DNA from: Cenarchaeum symbiosum A
Lineage (GTDB): Archaea > Thermoproteota > Nitrososphaeria > Nitrososphaerales > Nitrosopumilaceae
Direction of reading: 5' to 3'
DNA length: 64,000 nt
Assembly (NCBI GenBank): GCA_000200715.1
Contig: DP000238.1
Coordinates: 256,832-320,831 of the forward strand
Below are positions 2,551 to 28,212 of this stretch, piece after piece; position 1 is the stretch's first letter; every line of letters starts with the position of its first letter. A program made the position numbers and the translations under genes. Below the pieces are notes generated by a model, which did no database searches, was not told the origin of the DNA, and saw only the letters and a program-made list of their open reading frames with translations.

Positions 2551-3018
2551 CTACTTGAAATAGCTGATTGGTATGTTCTGATAGTCGCCATTGGGCAGCA
2601 CTCTCCTTATCACTATGGGTATTATCCTTTTCTCTAGCTCCCCCATTGCTATGTCCAGGGACGTCCTCGCGTCTGCAGGTATCTCTATGAACGGCGGGGC
2701 TCCCAGCGAGAGCTGCAGCGCCCTTGCGCCCATTATCCTGGCCTTTTCAAAGCGGGTCAGCACGGGCGGCCCTATCAGTATCTTTTTGTCCGATGTGAGC
2801 TCCTGCGGCTCGTGCACGGTGTCTATCTCTATGACGTCCCTCTCCTGGATCTCCTTTATTCTGACCTCTAGCTCTTCTTGTTGTTCCTCGGTGAGCTCAT
2901 TGACCTCGGCTAGCCGCCTGTACGATTCGAGCGCCTTGCTTAGCCCTATGTCAATCTCCGGCTCGCCTGCGGCCTCGGAGCCCTCTACAACTAGCTCCTG
3001 ATCATTTGCATCCGACAA
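2551..3018 (-). CDS. rpoK: DNA-directed RNA polymerase subunit Rpo6 (RpoK/omega)
   Basis: A 155-residue protein. The C-terminal half has the conserved omega/Rpb6 core (LTRFEKARIMGARALQLSLG), followed by 'IPIVIRRVLPNGDYQNIPI'. The first ~75 residues are an acidic, Glu-rich extension not present in short crenarchaeal RpoK (about 60-90 aa) but seen in eukaryotic Rpb6. Rpo6 holds the large subunits together. A TATA box (TTATAAATC on the minus strand, near 3045) lies about 27 nt upstream of ATG 3018. Confidence 0.9.
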   Translation of the reverse strand: MSDANDQELVVEGSEAAGEPEIDIGLSKALESYRRLAEVNELTEEQQEELEVRIKEIQERDVIEIDTVHEPQELTSDKKILIGPPVLTRFEKARIMGARALQLSLGAPPFIEIPADARTSLDIAMGELEKRIIPIVIRRVLPNGDYQNIPISYFK

Positions 3019-3095
3019 GCGATCGTGTCTTTTGGGACTGATTTATAACCCTTTTTAAATAAAAATGCAAAAGACGGCCCATTTCGCACCCTGCA

Positions 3096-3314
3096 TCATG
3101 TTTGGGCGGCGCCCGTCATCTTTGTGCGCAGCCGCTTCTTCCACTTTACATTGCGGGGTACGCCGCGCGTCCTGTATCCGCAGCAGGGGCAGTGTATGCC
3201 GTCCCAGTTTATGAAAATATCGCACATCTGGCATCTCTTCTGGCCGTTTTCATACCTGCCTCCGCTGACCGGCTTTTTGGCCTTGTACCTGAGGCATATT
3301 CCCTTGCAAGACAC
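3096..3314 (-). CDS. Small Cys-rich zinc-binding protein, conserved in Thaumarchaeota
   Basis: A 72-residue basic protein starting at GTG 3314 (MSCKGICLRYKAKKP). It has CxxxC, CQMC and CPCCG clusters, enough for one or two zinc ribbons, and a Lys/Arg-rich tail. No enzymatic motif is seen. It resembles a small zinc-finger family I associate with ammonia-oxidising archaea. A TTTAATTAT element about 25 nt upstream (near 3339) supports the GTG start. A role in nucleic-acid binding is plausible from the charge but unproven. Confidence 0.65.
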   Translation of the reverse strand: MSCKGICLRYKAKKPVSGGRYENGQKRCQMCDIFINWDGIHCPCCGYRTRGVPRNVKWKKRLRTKMTGAAQT

Positions 3315-3518
3315 CGATCAAAGTGGCCTTTGTTCATAATTAAATGTGTGGCAGAAAAGCGCCGGGCCGGAGGGCACCATGGGGGGCCTCGCCGGGCAGG
3401 GGGCACTGCCGCATGCCGCGCTGTATAATCACATTATATGCCGGCAGGCAGGTGTGGCCGTGCCGGCTGTATGAATCATAAACTAGGTTGATATTGATCG
3501 GGCACCGCCCGGTGCCTG

Positions 3519-5489
3519 ATGAGGGGCCCGGGTATTGTGCTGGCAATATTGGCCTTGGCAGTGCTGGTGCCGGGCGTGGTCTTGGCGGCAAACTTTACGG
3601 ATGCCCCCAAAGGGCCTACAACCACGTGCCTGGACCCCGGCGTTTCAGACGGGCAGCCCGGCGGAACAGACTGCACGGCCATGCATGCTGATAACGGCAC
3701 CGAATGGGCCGGCTCGCACATGCACGGCAATGCGTCCGTCCAGGAGATACATGTCGTCTGCAACGAAGACGGGTGCTCTACGCACACCCATTACTATAAC
3801 ATGGAGGCGGGCGGACCGGCCATGCCGCACGGGGCAGATGGCGCACATTCTGCAAGCCCGGATCCCGCAGAGGAGCCCGGGCCGCCGCCGAGTCTGGGCA
3901 CGTCTGCGCTCACGGATAGCTCCCCCGCTCTGAGTGATACATATTCACTGACAGCAAGGCCCGGCGTGAAGGCTGCTCCCGTAATGGATGATGCTGCCTC
4001 GGCGGGCACAGATTCCGATATGCCGGATGATGCCGCTCCCGCGCGTGATGCGGCCTTGAATGATACGGATTCTGGCGCGCCCGCAATGGATGATGCGGCT
4101 CCGGAGGGCGCCGGCGCGGCCGGGCCCGTCGCAAATGATCCTGTCCCGACTGTTACTAGCGCACCGCCCGAGCCCGCCGCAACTGTTCCCGCTCCAACCG
4201 TCCCCGACGTTCCCGAGCCCGTTGTGCCCGAGCCCGCCGCAACTGTTCCCGCTCCAACCGTCCCCGACGTGCCCGAGCCCGTTGTGCCCGAGCCCGCCGC
4301 AAATGTTCCCGCTCCAACCGTCCCCGACGTTCCCGAGCCCGTTGTGCCCGAGCCCGCCGCAACTGTTCCCGCTCCAACCGTCCCCGACGTGCCCGAGCCC
4401 GTTGTGCCCGAGCCCGCCGCAAATGTTCCCGCTCCAACCGTCCCCGACGTGCCCGAGCCCGTTGTGCCCGAGCCCGCCGCAAATGTTCCCGCTCCAACCG
4501 TCCCCGACGTTCCCGAGCCCGTTGTGCCCGAGCCCGCCGCAACTGTTCCCGCTCCAACCGTTCCAGACGTGCCCGAGCCCGTTGTGCCCGAGCCCGCCGC
4601 AAATGTTCCCGCTCCGGAGGGCGCCGGCGCGCCGACAGATCCCCCTGCCATGTTGATCACGCCATTGGTGGAAAACGCGCGCGTGGAGGGCAACTTTACG
4701 TACGGCCCGCACCCCCGGAATACGTTCGAGCTGTACCTGACAGACGGGCACGGCAGGACGCCCGTGATGGTATACTTCCACCAGGGCATGCCCGCGAACA
4801 GCAGCATCCCGCGCGGCGAATGGCACGTTACAACCGACGAGCTGCTCTCCCGGGGGATATCCGTAATACACGCGGACTATCCGTTCATCGACGAGACCGA
4901 CATCAAGGGCATGGTGGGAAACGCGTCTCTTGTAATTGACTACATAGCTGTCAACGGCCTCGACATTGGAGTCGACCCCGAAAGAATGGGGGTATACGGC
5001 TCGGGCGCGGGCGGCGGCATTGCGCTGTACATTGCAACGGGCAGCCGCACAGGGCTCATAGACGCCGTAGGCCACTTTAACGCGCCGTCTACATTCGACA
5101 TTGGCAGCTGGCCTGCAATAATCGGCCTTCCCCTGACCGATCTTACACGGGAGGTGGGTGCGGATGTGCCAGCCCTGTACGGGGTGGATTCATTTGACGA
5201 TCTGGCCCGCGGGGAAGCGCTGAGGCTGCGCGTCTCGCTGGACATGCTGGGCAACATGGATGCTGGCAGCCCGCCGATCGTGGTCTGGACGGACGGCGTT
5301 GCGGGCGGGGACAGCCTCGAATCCCTGATGATGCATCCGGGCCACGCCCGGGCCCTGCTGGACAGGTGCAGGGAGCTTGGCATCTTGTGCGTGGATAACG
5401 CCCTGGGCGGCAGGATATTCGTAGAGCGACTCGGGGCCGGGGCGCATGACTTTATGATAAGGGGCGGCGGATTCGGCACATTAGGCTAG
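3519..5489 (+). CDS. Secreted protein: Pro-rich 20-residue repeats plus degenerate alpha/beta-hydrolase domain
   Basis: A 656-residue protein with an N-terminal signal peptide (RGPGIVLAILALAVLVPGVVLAA). An Asp/Ala/Pro-rich spacer follows, then residues about 218-365 made of seven-plus 20-residue repeats (VPAPTVPDVPEPVVPEPAAT/N). The C-terminal domain (about 380-656) resembles dienelactone-hydrolase/esterase folds: 'PVMVYFHQG', 'GVYGSGAGGGIAL' at the nucleophile elbow, and a terminal 'GAGAHDFM' His region. The elbow reads G-S-G-A-G-G where G-H-S-M-G-G is usual, so the catalytic Ser seems replaced by Gly. A non-catalytic binding or surface role is inferred. ATG 3519 follows a TATA-like TGATATTG at about 3490. 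Confidence 0.7.
   Translation: MRGPGIVLAILALAVLVPGVVLAANFTDAPKGPTTTCLDPGVSDGQPGGTDCTAMHADNGTEWAGSHMHGNASVQEIHVVCNEDGCSTHTHYYNMEAGGPAMPHGADGAHSASPDPAEEPGPPPSLGTSALTDSSPALSDTYSLTARPGVKAAPVMDDAASAGTDSDMPDDAAPARDAALNDTDSGAPAMDDAAPEGAGAAGPVANDPVPTVTSAPPEPAATVPAPTVPDVPEPVVPEPAATVPAPTVPDVPEPVVPEPAANVPAPTVPDVPEPVVPEPAATVPAPTVPDVPEPVVPEPAANVPAPTVPDVPEPVVPEPAANVPAPTVPDVPEPVVPEPAATVPAPTVPDVPEPVVPEPAANVPAPEGAGAPTDPPAMLITPLVENARVEGNFTYGPHPRNTFELYLTDGHGRTPVMVYFHQGMPANSSIPRGEWHVTTDELLSRGISVIHADYPFIDETDIKGMVGNASLVIDYIAVNGLDIGVDPERMGVYGSGAGGGIALYIATGSRTGLIDAVGHFNAPSTFDIGSWPAIIGLPLTDLTREVGADVPALYGVDSFDDLARGEALRLRVSLDMLGNMDAGSPPIVVWTDGVAGGDSLESLMMHPGHARALLDRCRELGILCVDNALGGRIFVERLGAGAHDFMIRGGGFGTLG
4098..4631 (+). 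repeat. 60-bp tandem repeat array inside the secreted protein gene, flanked by 21-bp direct repeats
   Basis: Between about 4171 and 4610 a 60-bp unit repeats seven-plus times with only two variable sites (gacgtt/gacgtg and aactgt/aaatgt). The two variants travel together and mostly alternate, so the real unit of expansion looks like 120 bp. An identical 21-bp sequence starting gctccggaggg lies at 4098-4118 and again at 4611-4631, at the two edges of the array. The frame is kept throughout. Confidence 0.9.
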
Positions 5490-14693: not shown

Positions 14694-15242
14694 ATGGATC
14701 CAATTGAATGGGTTGCTCTTATAGTAAGCACACTTGCTGCGATCGGCACAATCGTCACGGTGGTTATATCTGCTTACAAATATTTTGGCAAAAAAAATGC
14801 TGAAAAAATACGTTCAATACAAAATTTATACTGTGAGTTAAATGACACCTTGAAAGGACTAGACATTCTAAAATATCCGCACAATGTTCTATCTATGAAA
14901 ATAGACGTTTCTGCAGGAAATGAAAAAATAGCATATTTCATGAACAGATCTCTGAATCACGATTTTTATGACAGTTTGATATCATCTGGTGCTATCTATT
15001 TATTGGATCAGGATATTCAGCAAACCATACAGCATATCTTCAGACTGATCAAAACACACAACAATTATCTCGAAATTGCGATGCGTATGCTTAGACAACC
15101 ACAACCGGTAATGGAAGAAATCTGGCCATATGTCTATTGGCTGGAACAAAACCAACCGCGCATAACGATGATCATTCGGGAAGTTATGGACAAGCTGGAG
15201 GAGCGCTTTATGATTGATGAGTGCCTGCCCTCGGCAGTATAG
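14694..15242 (+). CDS. Membrane-anchored NHDFYDS-family protein (dispersed copy)
   Basis: A 182-residue protein starting at ATG 14694 (MDPIEWVALIVSTLAAIGTI). One N-terminal transmembrane helix (about residues 5-28) is followed by a basic stretch and a helical cytoplasmic-type domain with 'MNRSLNHDFYDSLISSGAIYLLDQDIQQTIQHIFRLIKTHNNYLEI'. The same pattern occurs in the protein at 27442-28071 and the decayed copy at 26742-27040. Gene GC is clearly lower than the neighbourhood, suggesting acquisition. TATA-like GTATAATAATC lies about 30 nt upstream. Longer in-frame starts exist but precede the TATA box. Function unknown. Confidence 0.6.
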   Translation: MDPIEWVALIVSTLAAIGTIVTVVISAYKYFGKKNAEKIRSIQNLYCELNDTLKGLDILKYPHNVLSMKIDVSAGNEKIAYFMNRSLNHDFYDSLISSGAIYLLDQDIQQTIQHIFRLIKTHNNYLEIAMRMLRQPQPVMEEIWPYVYWLEQNQPRITMIIREVMDKLEERFMIDECLPSAV

Positions 15243-15397: not shown

Positions 15398-16507
15398 TCA
15401 GTTTTTCTCCTTCGACCTGCCCAGCCTCTCTGCCGCAACCGGGTCGCCCGCCTTTACCCTGTATTTCTCGGGCACCTCGGCCAGCTCGATGCTGTCATAG
15501 GATGTCCTATCCACCTCCGGCATCTTCGACCTGCCCAGCCTCTCTGCCGCAACCGGGTCGCCCGCCTTTACCCTGTATTTCTCGGGCACCTCGGCCAGCT
15601 CGATGCTGTCATAGGATGTCCTATCCACCTCCGGCATCTTCGACCTGCCCAGCCTCTCTGCCGCAACCGGGTCACCCGCCTTTACCCTGTATTTCTGGGG
15701 CACCTCGGCCAGCTCGATGCTGTCATAGGATGTCCTATCCACCTCCGGCATCTTCGACCTGCCCAGCCTCTCTGCCGCAACCGGGTCGCCCGCCTTTACA
15801 CTGTACTTTTCGGGCACCTCGGCCAGCCTGGTGCCGTCATAGGACGACTTTGCAGCTCTCCGCACACTCGCCTCGCCCAGCCTTTCTACCGCAACCGGGT
15901 CGCCCGCCTTTACACTGTACTTTTCGGGCACCTCGGCCAGCCTGGTGCCGTCATAGGACGACTTTGCAGCTCTCCGCACACTCGCCTCGCCCAGCCTTTC
16001 TACCGCAACCGGGTCGCCCGCCTTTACACTGTACTTTTCGGGCACCTCGGCCAGCCTGGTGCCGTCATAGGACGACTTTGCAGCTCTCCGCACACTCGCC
16101 TCGCCCAGCCTTTCTACCGCAACCGGGTCGCCCGCCTTTACACTGTACTTTTCGGGCACCTCGGCCAGCCTGGTGCCGTCATAGGACGACTTTGCAGCTC
16201 TCCGCACACTCGCCTCGCCCAGCCTTTCTACCGCAACCGGGTCGCCCGCCTTTACACTGTACTTTTCGGGCACCTCGGCCAGCTTGATGCTGACATAGGA
16301 TGGTTCTTCAGCTTCTTGTATACTCCGTCCACCCTGCTTGTCTGGACTGTCGGTTGCCTTTGGATCGCGTTCAATATGAATCGTGGTCTTGCCAGATTTG
16401 TCTGGCCGGCTAACGGTTATTTTTACCCCGTATACGCTGACTATTTTGGTTCCCTTATCTCCGTAGGGTGGCTTCTCTTCTGCCCTTTTTTCAGTAGTAC
16501 TTGCCAT
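15398..16507 (-). CDS. Tandem-repeat protein with eight 38-residue units
   Basis: A 369-residue hydrophilic protein. The first ~75 residues are unique (MASTTEKRAEEKPPYGDKG...). Then come eight units of 38 residues with core LAEVPEKYxVKAGDPVAxER. Two subtypes exist: four N-terminal units with 'LGEASVRRAAKSSYDGTR' and four C-terminal units with 'LGRSKMPEVDRTSYDSIE'; the last is cut after 28 residues. There is no signal peptide or TM helix. ATG 16507 follows TTAAATAAC at 28 nt, the same element and spacing as the small Pro-rich genes at 26-27 kb. It lies tail-to-tail with the NHDFYDS-family gene. Function unknown. Confidence 0.7.
   Translation of the reverse strand: MASTTEKRAEEKPPYGDKGTKIVSVYGVKITVSRPDKSGKTTIHIERDPKATDSPDKQGGRSIQEAEEPSYVSIKLAEVPEKYSVKAGDPVAVERLGEASVRRAAKSSYDGTRLAEVPEKYSVKAGDPVAVERLGEASVRRAAKSSYDGTRLAEVPEKYSVKAGDPVAVERLGEASVRRAAKSSYDGTRLAEVPEKYSVKAGDPVAVERLGEASVRRAAKSSYDGTRLAEVPEKYSVKAGDPVAAERLGRSKMPEVDRTSYDSIELAEVPQKYRVKAGDPVAAERLGRSKMPEVDRTSYDSIELAEVPEKYRVKAGDPVAAERLGRSKMPEVDRTSYDSIELAEVPEKYRVKAGDPVAAERLGRSKEKN
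15412..16290 (-). repeat. 114-bp coding tandem repeats
   Basis: The unit length of 114 bp is shown, for example, by gggtcgcccg at 15441 and 15555. Units within each subtype are almost identical in DNA, including synonymous positions, which indicates recent amplification or gene conversion. The subtype boundary lies near 15830. Confidence 0.9.
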
Positions 16508-26030: not shown

Positions 26031-26211
26031 ATTTGGCGCCGGCCCGTCGCAGGTTATAAACTGATTTGTTGGCATCCGGGTGCTTGGATTGCACACTGGC
26101 ATGGCCGCCCCTATCCACATTGGCTGTAACACCGCAACGTCACGTGGCCGTGCTGCATGGTCGGGGGATCATATACAATCACAAGGCGCTTTTCATCCAG
26201 ACCCACGTACA

Positions 26212-26243
26212 TGTTTTAAGTAACATGGCATGTGTGTGATGAT
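26212..26243 (+). promoter_or_regulatory. Promoter of the triple-repeat small Pro-rich gene
   Basis: TTTTAAGTAACATG at 26214-26227 precedes TGATGAT and ATG 26244. The TATA-to-ATG distance is about 27 nt, and sequence and spacing match the promoters at 26591 and 27291. Confidence 0.65.
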
Positions 26244-26588
26244 ATGGATGAAAAACAGAAACGGGCTGAAATCAAGGAAAGATTTGTCATGACCGGGGGC
26301 TGTCCCATGCCCAGACTGCCCTCTTATCTCGGCGCAAAGCAGGGTGTGATAAAGCCGCCTGCCAAGCGCCCTGTGGAGGACAAGGGGTTTGTCATGACCG
26401 GGGGCTATCCCATGCCCAGACTGCCCTCTTATCTCGGCGCAAAGCAGGGTGTGATAAAGCCGCCTGCCAAGCGCCCTGTGGAGGACAAGGGGTTTGTCAT
26501 GACCGGGGGCTATCCCATGCCCAGACTGCCCTCTTATCTCGACGTGAAGAGGAGCAATCCAACTGGCAAGCGGCCTTTACGTACGTAA
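26244..26588 (+). CDS. Small Pro-rich repeat protein, three-unit member
   Basis: A 114-residue protein (MDEKQKRAEIKERFVMTGGC...). It contains three 35-residue units with core FVMTGGYPMPRLPSYLGAKQ followed by a basic GVIKPPAKRPVEDK linker. The underlying 105-bp units (ttt at 26283, 26388, 26493) are almost identical. The core matches the single-unit proteins at 26621 and 27321 (FA-S-x-x-S-F/L-P-M-P-E-x-x-S-Y-L). No signal or TM segment. ATG 26244 rather than 26232 is chosen by alignment with the other two family starts. Function unknown. Confidence 0.6.
   Translation: MDEKQKRAEIKERFVMTGGCPMPRLPSYLGAKQGVIKPPAKRPVEDKGFVMTGGYPMPRLPSYLGAKQGVIKPPAKRPVEDKGFVMTGGYPMPRLPSYLDVKRSNPTGKRPLRT
26281..26560 (+). 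repeat. 105-bp coding tandem repeat, about 2.7 copies
   Basis: Copies start at about 26281, 26386 and 26491. They differ at only a few bases (for example ggctgtccc in copy 1, ggctatccc in copies 2 and 3), and the third diverges after 'CTTATCTCG'. Confidence 0.9.
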
Positions 26589-26620
26589 CATTTTAAATAA
26601 TATGTCCGGTATGTGATGAT
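26589..26620 (+). promoter_or_regulatory. Promoter copy of the small Pro-rich gene family
   Basis: TTTTAAATAA (26591-26600) and the following 20 nt up to ATG 26621 are nearly identical to 27289-27320, including TGTCCGGTATGT. The distance from TATA centre to ATG is about 26 nt, so transcripts are leaderless or nearly so. Confidence 0.65.
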
Positions 26621-26755
26621 ATGGCCAAAGAACAGAAAAAGAAAGAGAAATTCACAGAAGGATTTGCCTCGCCCGCTAGCCTTCCTATGCCTGAGCTGCC
26701 CTCTTATCTTGGAGTGAGGACGAGCAAGCGCAAGCCAGATACTACGCAGCCTTAA
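26621..26755 (+). CDS. 44-residue Pro-rich protein, copy A
   Basis: A 44-residue reading frame (MAKEQKKKEKFTEGFASPAS...). It is the same length as copy B at 27321-27455, with 'FASPASLPMPELPSYLGV' as the shared core and a basic tail ending TTQP. Its promoter duplicates that of copy B, and its stop region overlaps the end of a convergent, decayed NHDFYDS-family gene by 14 nt. The conserved length and core between copies support translation. Function unknown. Confidence 0.55.
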   Translation: MAKEQKKKEKFTEGFASPASLPMPELPSYLGVRTSKRKPDTTQP

Positions 26756-27040
26756 ACATACTTTCTAATTTTTTCATTATGGGCGGAATTTCATCTTTCT
26801 GTGAATCTTCCGCGTCGTTCATCCACTCGTAATATCTCTGATTCTGTTCCCTTACAACGGAGAATTCTTTGACACTATAAGCAGACAGTACCGTGCACGA
26901 GTAGTGATGCTGAGATAGTTGTTGTGGGATTTAATTATTCTGAAAAGGTTCTGTATGCTTTGCTGTAGTTGTGGCTCCAAGAAGTTAATCATCCCGGAAC
27001 TGATCATACTGTCATAGAAATCATGATTAAATGCCATGGG
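26742..27040 (-). pseudogene. Decayed copy of the NHDFYDS-family membrane protein
   Basis: Reading the minus strand from about 27038, 'MAFNHDFYDSMISSG', 'NFLEPQLQQSIQNLFRIIKSHNNYL' and 'ITTRA' align with the intact gene at 27442-28071. One base is then missing (gcagacagtaccgtgcacg here versus gcagacagtatcggtgcacg in the intact gene). In the next frame homology resumes ('LSAYSVKE', 'EQNQRYYEWMNDAED', 'IMKKLE') to TAG 26742. The N-terminal TM part upstream of the NHDFYDS motif is missing, so this is a 5'-truncated, frameshifted remnant. Confidence 0.75.
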
Positions 27041-27288
27041 CATCTTCCCAACCTCTAATACTCGGCCCAGAGGTTGCGGGCATGCCGGTGTGTGATGCCC
27101 AATCATTCTGCCACCCCCGATGCAGGCTGACCCTTCCGGCGCTGGCGTATGGGGTGCCTGATCCCGGAATCTGTAAGGTGCTGGTCCCTCATGCCGGGCG
27201 GTCCGTAGAGGGGGCACAAATCCTCTTTCCCACGCCTCGGCGGGGGGGACAAGATTTCGGGATACTACACATTAGAATTCGCATGCAA
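27041..27288. other. Spacer between decayed copy and copy B
   Basis: About 250 bp that is again GC-richer than the flanking accessory genes. No supported reading frame, RNA or repeat is seen. The left edge is the point where similarity to the intact membrane-protein gene stops abruptly. Confidence 0.4.
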
Positions 27289-27320
27289 CATTTTAAATAA
27301 CATGTCCGGTATGTAATGAT
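27289..27320 (+). promoter_or_regulatory. Promoter copy of the small Pro-rich gene family
   Basis: TTTTAAATAA (27291-27300), then catgtccggtatgtaatgat to ATG 27321. It differs from the copy at 26589-26620 at only two positions. Confidence 0.65.
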
Positions 27321-27455
27321 ATGGCTGAAGAACAGAAAAAGAAAGTGGAAATCAAAGAAGGATTTGCCTCTACCGGCAGCTTTCCCATGCCTGAACCCCT
27401 TTCCTATCTTAACGTAAAAACGCGCAAACCTAAGTCAACTGCTAAGCAGCCTTAA
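27321..27455 (+). CDS. 44-residue Pro-rich protein, copy B
   Basis: A 44-residue frame (MAEEQKKKVEIKEGFASTGS...) with the core 'GFASTGSFPMPEPLSYLNV' and a basic tail ending TAKQP. Highly charged N-terminus, no TM or signal. The last 14 nt overlap the end of the convergent intact NHDFYDS-family gene, the same arrangement as copy A with its decayed partner, so the pair was duplicated as a unit. Function unknown. Confidence 0.58.
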   Translation: MAEEQKKKVEIKEGFASTGSFPMPEPLSYLNVKTRKPKSTAKQP

Positions 27456-28071
27456 CATATTTTTCTAATTTTTTCATTATGTCTGGAATTTTATCCCTCA
27501 GTGCATCTTCCGCATCGTTCATCCATTCATAATATCTCTGATTCTGTTCCTTTATAACGGACAACTCTTTGACACTATAAGCAGACAGTATCGGTGCACG
27601 AGTGGTAATGTCGAGATATTTGTTGTGCAATTTAATTATCCTGAAAATGTTTTGTATACTTTGTTGTAGCTGTGGGTCCAAGAAATTAATTATTCCGGAA
27701 CTGATCATACTGTCATAGAAATCATGGTTAAATAACATATTTATAAAGTGGACCGTCTTTTTCTTACCATTCGAATCCAGTATCTCCATTTCTTTACGAC
27801 TGATTGAGTCTTTTTTACCTTTTATGGTCTGTAAAGTATCAGCTATCTCGAAATATAGATTTTCAGAAGCTCTGGATCTATCGGCATCCCTTTCTGCTAT
27901 ATATTTATCTTCAGCAGCCTTCTTTTCTCTGGAATATTTATCTTCAGCAGCCTTCTTTTCTCTGAAATACTTGGTTGCGGTCAGTGTTAAGACTATGATT
28001 GCAGCAATGTAAGAGATGTCCTCCAATGGATCACTTATGAAATTGGCGTAAAAATTTTCAAGTATATCCAT
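27442..28071 (-). CDS. Membrane-anchored NHDFYDS-family protein, intact copy
   Basis: A 209-residue protein starting at ATG 28071 (MDILENFYANFISDPLEDIS). A TM helix (about 19-37, ISYIAAIIVLTLTATKYF) is followed by a Lys/Glu-rich coiled coil with a duplicated REKKAAEDKY block, then the family domain 'MLFNHDFYDSMISSG...DPQLQQSIQNIFRIIKLHNKYLDI' and 'EQNQRYYEWMNDAEDALRD'. TATA-like GTTTTAAACAT (28094-28104) lies about 27 nt upstream of ATG 28071; an ATG at 28104 overlaps it. AT-rich codon use. Tail-to-tail with copy B of the small Pro-rich gene. Function unknown. Confidence 0.62.
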   Translation of the reverse strand: MDILENFYANFISDPLEDISYIAAIIVLTLTATKYFREKKAAEDKYSREKKAAEDKYIAERDADRSRASENLYFEIADTLQTIKGKKDSISRKEMEILDSNGKKKTVHFINMLFNHDFYDSMISSGIINFLDPQLQQSIQNIFRIIKLHNKYLDITTRAPILSAYSVKELSVIKEQNQRYYEWMNDAEDALRDKIPDIMKKLEKYVKAA

Positions 28072-28212
28072 AATATAAGTAAGGTATGGGTATGTTTTAA
28101 ACATAACGAATGGACACTAAGAGATTGGATGGGTGCCCTGAAACAAAACATGCGCAAAGACCAGGCGCCGCGGCAACGCACGAAACCGCGTTTTTAATAA
28201 AAAAATACTGTC

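Follow-up and report, generated by a model that had tools for sequence, protein, structure and literature searches.

A convergent pair of genes encoding an NHDFYDS membrane protein and a small charged protein, probably an uncharacterised two-gene system of Nitrosopumilaceae

Genes that meet tail to tail with overlapping 3′ ends are found in type I toxin-antitoxin loci such as txpA/RatA and bsrG/SR4 of Bacillus. The gene pair described here resembles these loci in its tail-to-tail overlap and in having a membrane protein as one partner. It differs in that both genes encode conserved proteins, with no non-coding RNA antitoxin, and in that the membrane protein, instead of a small hydrophobic peptide, is a protein of about 200 aa with a putative cytoplasmic domain. 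With the type II toxin-antitoxin systems it shares a two-gene unit, a small, charged and apparently disordered partner, a patchy multi-copy distribution and the existence of orphan small genes. Unlike them, its genes are convergent and not co-directional, each has its own promoter-like box, the other partner is membrane-anchored, and the pair is known here from its genes alone; no known toxin or antitoxin domain was matched in Pfam, NCBIfam, PHROGs or PADLOC by the 17 members searched. The 2TM/4TM defence effectors (PADLOC PDLC00691 and PDLC00715) likewise combine N-terminal membrane helices with a cytoplasmic domain. Their CBASS-type profiles gave weak hits of 17.9 and 16.6 bits to two single members, scores that membrane segments may reach by chance, and no nucleotide cyclase or sensor gene was recognised by eye among the ORFs around four loci.

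More generally, the membrane protein has no convincing match in Pfam, NCBIfam, PHROGs or PADLOC, where any one family was matched by at most one or two of the 17 members, none near its cut-off. It has no PDB sequence match and no significant fold match either, the small proteins have no Pfam match, and nothing on this gene pair was found in the open-access literature. As a gene system, whatever its mechanism, the pair fits no known family tested and lacks traits that define the toxin-antitoxin types nearest to it. We consider it very probable that it is a real, conserved convergent two-gene module of Nitrosopumilaceae, and probable that it is a two-gene system that has so far gone uncharacterised and matches no known one.

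The window, a stretch of 64,000 nucleotides of the Cenarchaeum symbiosum A genome (one contig of 2,045,086 bases, C1 below), holds the following features.

14694..15242, forward strand: second intact NHDFYDS membrane protein of the window, 182 aa (profile E 1.1e-73)
15398..16507, reverse strand: tandem-repeat protein, 369 aa, with EVPEKYxVKAGDPVA repeats, convergent with 14694-15242 across a 155-nt gap
26244..26588, forward strand: small-family member of three units, 114 aa, identified by tandem repeat, translation and TATA box, without a membrane partner of its own
26621..26755, forward strand: small protein gene, sister copy, 44 aa, identified by ORF, direct repeat and TATA box
26742..27037, reverse strand: 3′ half of a decayed NHDFYDS gene, convergent with 26621-26755 and overlapping it by 14 nt
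27059..27275, no strand assigned: repeat of about 200 nt in the intergenic space that separates the two units, probably outside the module
27321..27455, forward strand: small protein gene, 44 aa, MAEEQKKKVEIKEGFASTGSFPMPEPLSYLNVKTRKPKSTAKQP, identified by ORF, paralogs, TATA box and dN/dS
27442..28071, reverse strand: intact NHDFYDS membrane protein, 209 aa, overlapping the small gene 27321-27455 by 14 nt

The earlier note had described two 44-codon genes with near-identical upstream blocks, each overlapping an NHDFYDS frame tail to tail by 14 nt, one of these partners being intact and the other decayed, and a three-unit relative just upstream; all of this was borne out. The two small genes lie in an ungapped 300-nt direct repeat of 80% identity with a spacing of 700 nt (26580/27280), and the copies share a second block of 145 nt at 86% identity. 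Between the two reading frames dN/dS is 0.38. All three small genes (26244, 26621 and 27321) have a TATA box at −29, which reads TTTTAAATAA at 27321..27455, and the intact membrane gene has a TTTAAAA box at −30 of its ATG at 28071. The three-unit member is built on a 105-nt tandem repeat (2.5 copies, 99% matched). The decayed membrane gene retains 87% identity to the last 292 nt of the intact one, over 293 alignment columns; it is frame-shifted by indels and has lost the first 338 nt or so, membrane segment included. The fourth family member of the window, in which the membrane gene 14694-15242 faces the repeat protein 15398-16507, was absent from the earlier note. The repeat between the two units has matches of 70-73% at C1:813583, 383921 and 1325652, and part of it also matches ahead of the membrane gene at C1:191 kb. 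Duplication driven by insertion sequences was considered and is unlikely, since C. symbiosum A has no IS-like transposons according to a published survey (PMC6563490).

A search of the whole genome with the intact membrane protein matched six loci, and in total the genome holds five intact NHDFYDS membrane genes and several decayed copies. Three intact and three decayed membrane genes face a gene of about 40-44 aa tail to tail. The intact ones are 27442-28071, C1:1702 kb, whose small partner of 44 aa overlaps it by 4 nt, and C1:191 kb, where the overlap is again 4 nt and the 40-aa partner has diverged in sequence. The other two intact genes face a tandem-repeat protein, namely 15398-16507 for the window copy at 14694-15242 and a protein of 272 aa for C1:574 kb; relatives of 15398..16507 were found at C1:1402.7 kb and at C1:575.4 kb, the latter facing another membrane copy. 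Paralogs of the small gene 27321..27455 lie at C1:998.7 kb, 999.2 kb and 1703.0 kb. The region C1:998.7-999.3 kb holds two small genes, each opposite its own truncated membrane gene, and at C1:1152 kb the tail of a membrane gene is all that is left. On at least three occasions in this genome, a membrane gene has decayed while the small gene next to it stayed intact. Some small genes are kept here without any membrane partner (26244-26588 and C1:1077 kb), so that the two genes are not strictly interdependent. The solo gene at C1:1077.3 kb (L032:1803-1931) encodes MGQNDEDMDERGFILKGSQPLPDPPAWLGIRVSKYKPSDDEE and has a TATA box at −30; a candidate membrane-gene remnant beside it was rejected, having no support against shuffles. 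Another solo gene, at C1:1402.7 kb (L061:3192-4020), encodes an EVPEKY-type repeat protein, and the same strand carries, some 60-75 nt further downstream, a 60-nt remnant comprising a membrane gene's promoter and first codons, in an orientation that differs from that of the other pairs.

The loss of membrane genes beside kept small genes fits a role of the small protein as inhibitor or antitoxin. It bears on the strongest of the alternatives, a toxin-antitoxin-like or abortive-defence-like system in which the membrane protein would inhibit growth, the small disordered protein would neutralise it, and orphan small genes would outlast the effector. The genome indeed has more intact small genes than intact membrane genes, three of the former adjoining broken membrane genes, and the multi-copy presence and patchy distribution of the family (11 of 250 family genomes) point the same way, as do neighbourhoods rich in orphan membrane proteins, one of them with a possible tyrosine recombinase recognised by eye. 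However, PADLOC and PHROGs gave nothing beyond hits of about 18 bits to the membrane region of single members, the convergent order is atypical for protein toxin-antitoxin pairs, the small protein has no DNA-binding domain, and another Cenarchaeum has two partnerless membrane genes that appear intact. The small genes may also work in trans, on those membrane copies that are left. We regard this alternative as rather unlikely, and favour a conserved module in which the small protein is a working partner of the membrane protein.

Such a module calls for small frames that are expressed as proteins, and two kinds of evidence concern this point. In four independent pairs of small genes, 57.6 synonymous changes over 132.8 sites stand against 104.4 non-synonymous changes over 455.2 sites (pooled pS 0.43 vs pN 0.23, p=5e-6). 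The small frames are under purifying selection at the protein level, and the codon-level selection whose absence the earlier note would have counted against a paired system was found. Most members, across genera, have a TTTAAATA-type box at −29/−30 of the small ATG, a position that fits leaderless archaeal transcripts and supports the start codon chosen. This selection, together with amino-acid motifs kept across genera, argues against regulation at the RNA level, in which each of two overlapping convergent transcripts would supply at its 3′ end an antisense RNA or a terminator for the other and the small ORF would be secondary. The recurrent overlap of the coding ends by 4-29 nt suggests such a reading, and the Lys-rich coding ends correspond to T-rich tracts on the opposite strand that could terminate the facing transcript. 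Nevertheless, a few nt of overlap would not suffice for antisense action except with long 3′ UTRs, and two members have instead a gap of 155-160 nt and a long repeat protein; we judge this explanation improbable.

The module of two protein-coding genes recurs elsewhere. A profile search of 250 genomes of the family placed the membrane protein in 7 of 22 genera, a few of the matches being weak or distant, and 4 of 398 genomes in a phylum-wide sample were positive, so the membrane family hardly occurs outside Nitrosopumilaceae. Among GTDB contigs, seven loci with the membrane protein were found. In these other genomes the membrane gene is met by an opposite-strand ORF of 41-67 aa that stops inside its final 4-29 nt or 4 nt past its end, and a lake Nitrosarchaeum carries two copies of the module in the same layout. 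Counting ORFs that lie within −30 to +10 nt of the membrane-gene stop, 13 of 17 membrane genes, several of which are paralogs and thus incompletely independent, have a convergent ORF of 40-67 aa at their 3′ end, with an overlap of typically 4, 14 or 17 nt. Among control genes, which were uncurated longest-first ORFs from the same loci and give an approximate rate, an ATG-started convergent ORF was present in 4 of 111 (p=2e-11) and one with any start in 16 of 111 (p=4e-7). Two of the remaining four membrane genes face repeat proteins, and the other two, both in Cenarchaeum sp. G001, have no recognisable partner; the third membrane gene of that genome has a putative ORF of 57 aa.

The converse search, which covers one type of small protein, that of genome G079, gave four matches in 250 genomes (G064, G079, G188 and G246), and all four directly adjoin the 3′ end of a gene of the membrane family. 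The G188 copy is broken, its membrane gene having two stops, in a genome with 8% contamination. The relatives of both proteins are found together, where the earlier note had asked whether they might occur mostly apart. Among themselves, 29 of 120 pairs of small proteins score beyond 99% of shuffles, links across genera included, and 12 of the 13 convergent small proteins show such similarity to another one, the 57-aa L042 being left out. Cross-genus links include C191-L062, which connects the C. symbiosum and GKPRP types, and G064-G135, which have ASRNAPLK in common despite very distant membrane proteins. On a tree of the 17 membrane proteins, several branches of which are weak and one of which (G135) is very long, the eight partner labels can be placed with 9 changes, against a minimum of 7 and a mean of 12.0 under shuffling, where none of 200 shuffles came as low, and both repeat-protein partners fall in one fully supported pair. 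Partner type tracks membrane clade, a pattern that fits co-inheritance. That the two would be coincidental neighbours, lineage-specific families co-duplicated in compact genomes without shared function, is just as improbable as control by RNA. Convergent overlaps are common in compact genomes and some copies stand alone (L032, L061 and G001), but the pairing is kept across at least four genera besides that of the window, at 20-45% sequence identity, with 4 of 111 among controls, reciprocal matches in four of four and a partner type that follows the membrane tree.

How the conserved pair might work is suggested by the anatomy of its two proteins. The AlphaFold2 model of 27442..28071 has a long N-terminal helix, a beta-hairpin and further helices (mean pLDDT 81, pTM 0.62), and the helical domain holds the family motif (L/M)NHDFYDSxxxSG. 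In most members positive charges lie after the hydrophobic segment; by the positive-inside rule this places the C-terminal domain inside, and we infer on this basis that it is cytoplasmic. In the window protein itself the segment is weak and under the threshold used. The small proteins appear disordered by simple composition, with 74-90% disorder-promoting residues and a K/E-rich N-terminus. They carry short motifs such as (I/V/F)AS-x-(N/G)-x-P or SxNAP that differ between types. Those of this genome are FASTGSFP, VASTGGYP and FILKGSQP; the NAP type has IASRNAPLK and SVNAPT repeats, and others have ELPGP...GKPRPP. The motif is sometimes repeated two to four times, or expanded into tandem-repeat proteins of more than 100 aa; one of these, 15398..16507, is predicted to be mostly unstructured (pLDDT 38, from single-sequence prediction, which favours low values). 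Window copies and homologs alike combine an NH[DNRA].YD motif in a membrane-anchored helical domain with a convergent small motif-bearing ORF.

We propose that the product of the first gene is anchored by one or two N-terminal membrane helices and has a helical domain in the cytoplasm, and that the second gene, on the opposite strand with overlapping tails, gives a soluble, charged protein of 40-67 aa, each gene being driven by its own leaderless promoter. The cytoplasmic domain would bind the linear motif of the small partner, which would in turn gate or cluster the membrane protein. The number of motifs varies from one to about eight, which argues that the motif is the working part. We give the pair and this motif-binding mechanism, taken jointly, an even chance. 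More tentatively, the convergent overlapping genes may constitute a new kind of archaeal system, for signalling or as an effector, whose membrane receptor domain reads linear motifs on a multivalent disordered partner whose copy number is tuned by tandem-repeat expansion (1, 2, 3, 4 to about 8 units). Of the interpretation put forward in the earlier note, a functional pair acting as a unit is upheld by co-occurrence and codon selection. The roles that it suggested, an effector with its membrane partner or a surface or defence module, are conjectural, and a surface location of the small protein is unlikely, as no family member has a signal peptide or hydrophobic segment.

Several other assignments were considered and dropped. 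A surface antigen was suggested by the top PDB folds of the membrane protein, OspC/Vsp helical bundles, whose scores are not significant (E at least 0.036, TM-score at most 0.33). For a viral origin there was no significant viral fold, and no relative in three scans of viral contigs. For the repeat protein P0013, the Pfam hits (Raf1_N and others) were taken to be artefacts of its repeats, hardly any stretch passing singly, and an ESCRT/MIM2-like reading of a LPxPxxPSYL motif was abandoned as other small-protein types do not have this motif.

What was an unannotated cluster in a sponge symbiont is now a defined two-gene family with a layout, a motif and a promoter. It spans sponge-associated and freshwater ammonia-oxidising archaea, in which most accessory genes have no assigned function, and a sponge-specific role is unlikely, given the two copies in the lake Nitrosarchaeum. 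Automatic annotation may skip partners as short as the small ones, and the pair may thus be invisible in databases. If the motif binding holds true, this would be a simple archaeal system for linear-motif recognition at the membrane and for the evolution of repeat number.

The module was also met on contigs deposited as Gammaproteobacteria, Acidimicrobiia and Binatia MAGs (L064, L067 and L068). Mis-binning is likelier than transfer to bacteria, because the L067 contig matches 151 places in the genome of an uncultured Cenarchaeum; these matches, of L067:4700-6504 to the 3.2 Mb of Cenarchaeum sp. G001 at 63-84%, mark a large repetitive family. Two arrangements parallel the tandem genes in the window. 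On the Cenarchaeum-like contig L067 the membrane gene is duplicated in tandem in near-identical copies (238-819 and 2950-3531), and at L099:3108-3236 a second ORF of 42 aa (..IYETRQAPSKKRPSDSSDGK) lies in tandem just upstream of the G135 small gene.
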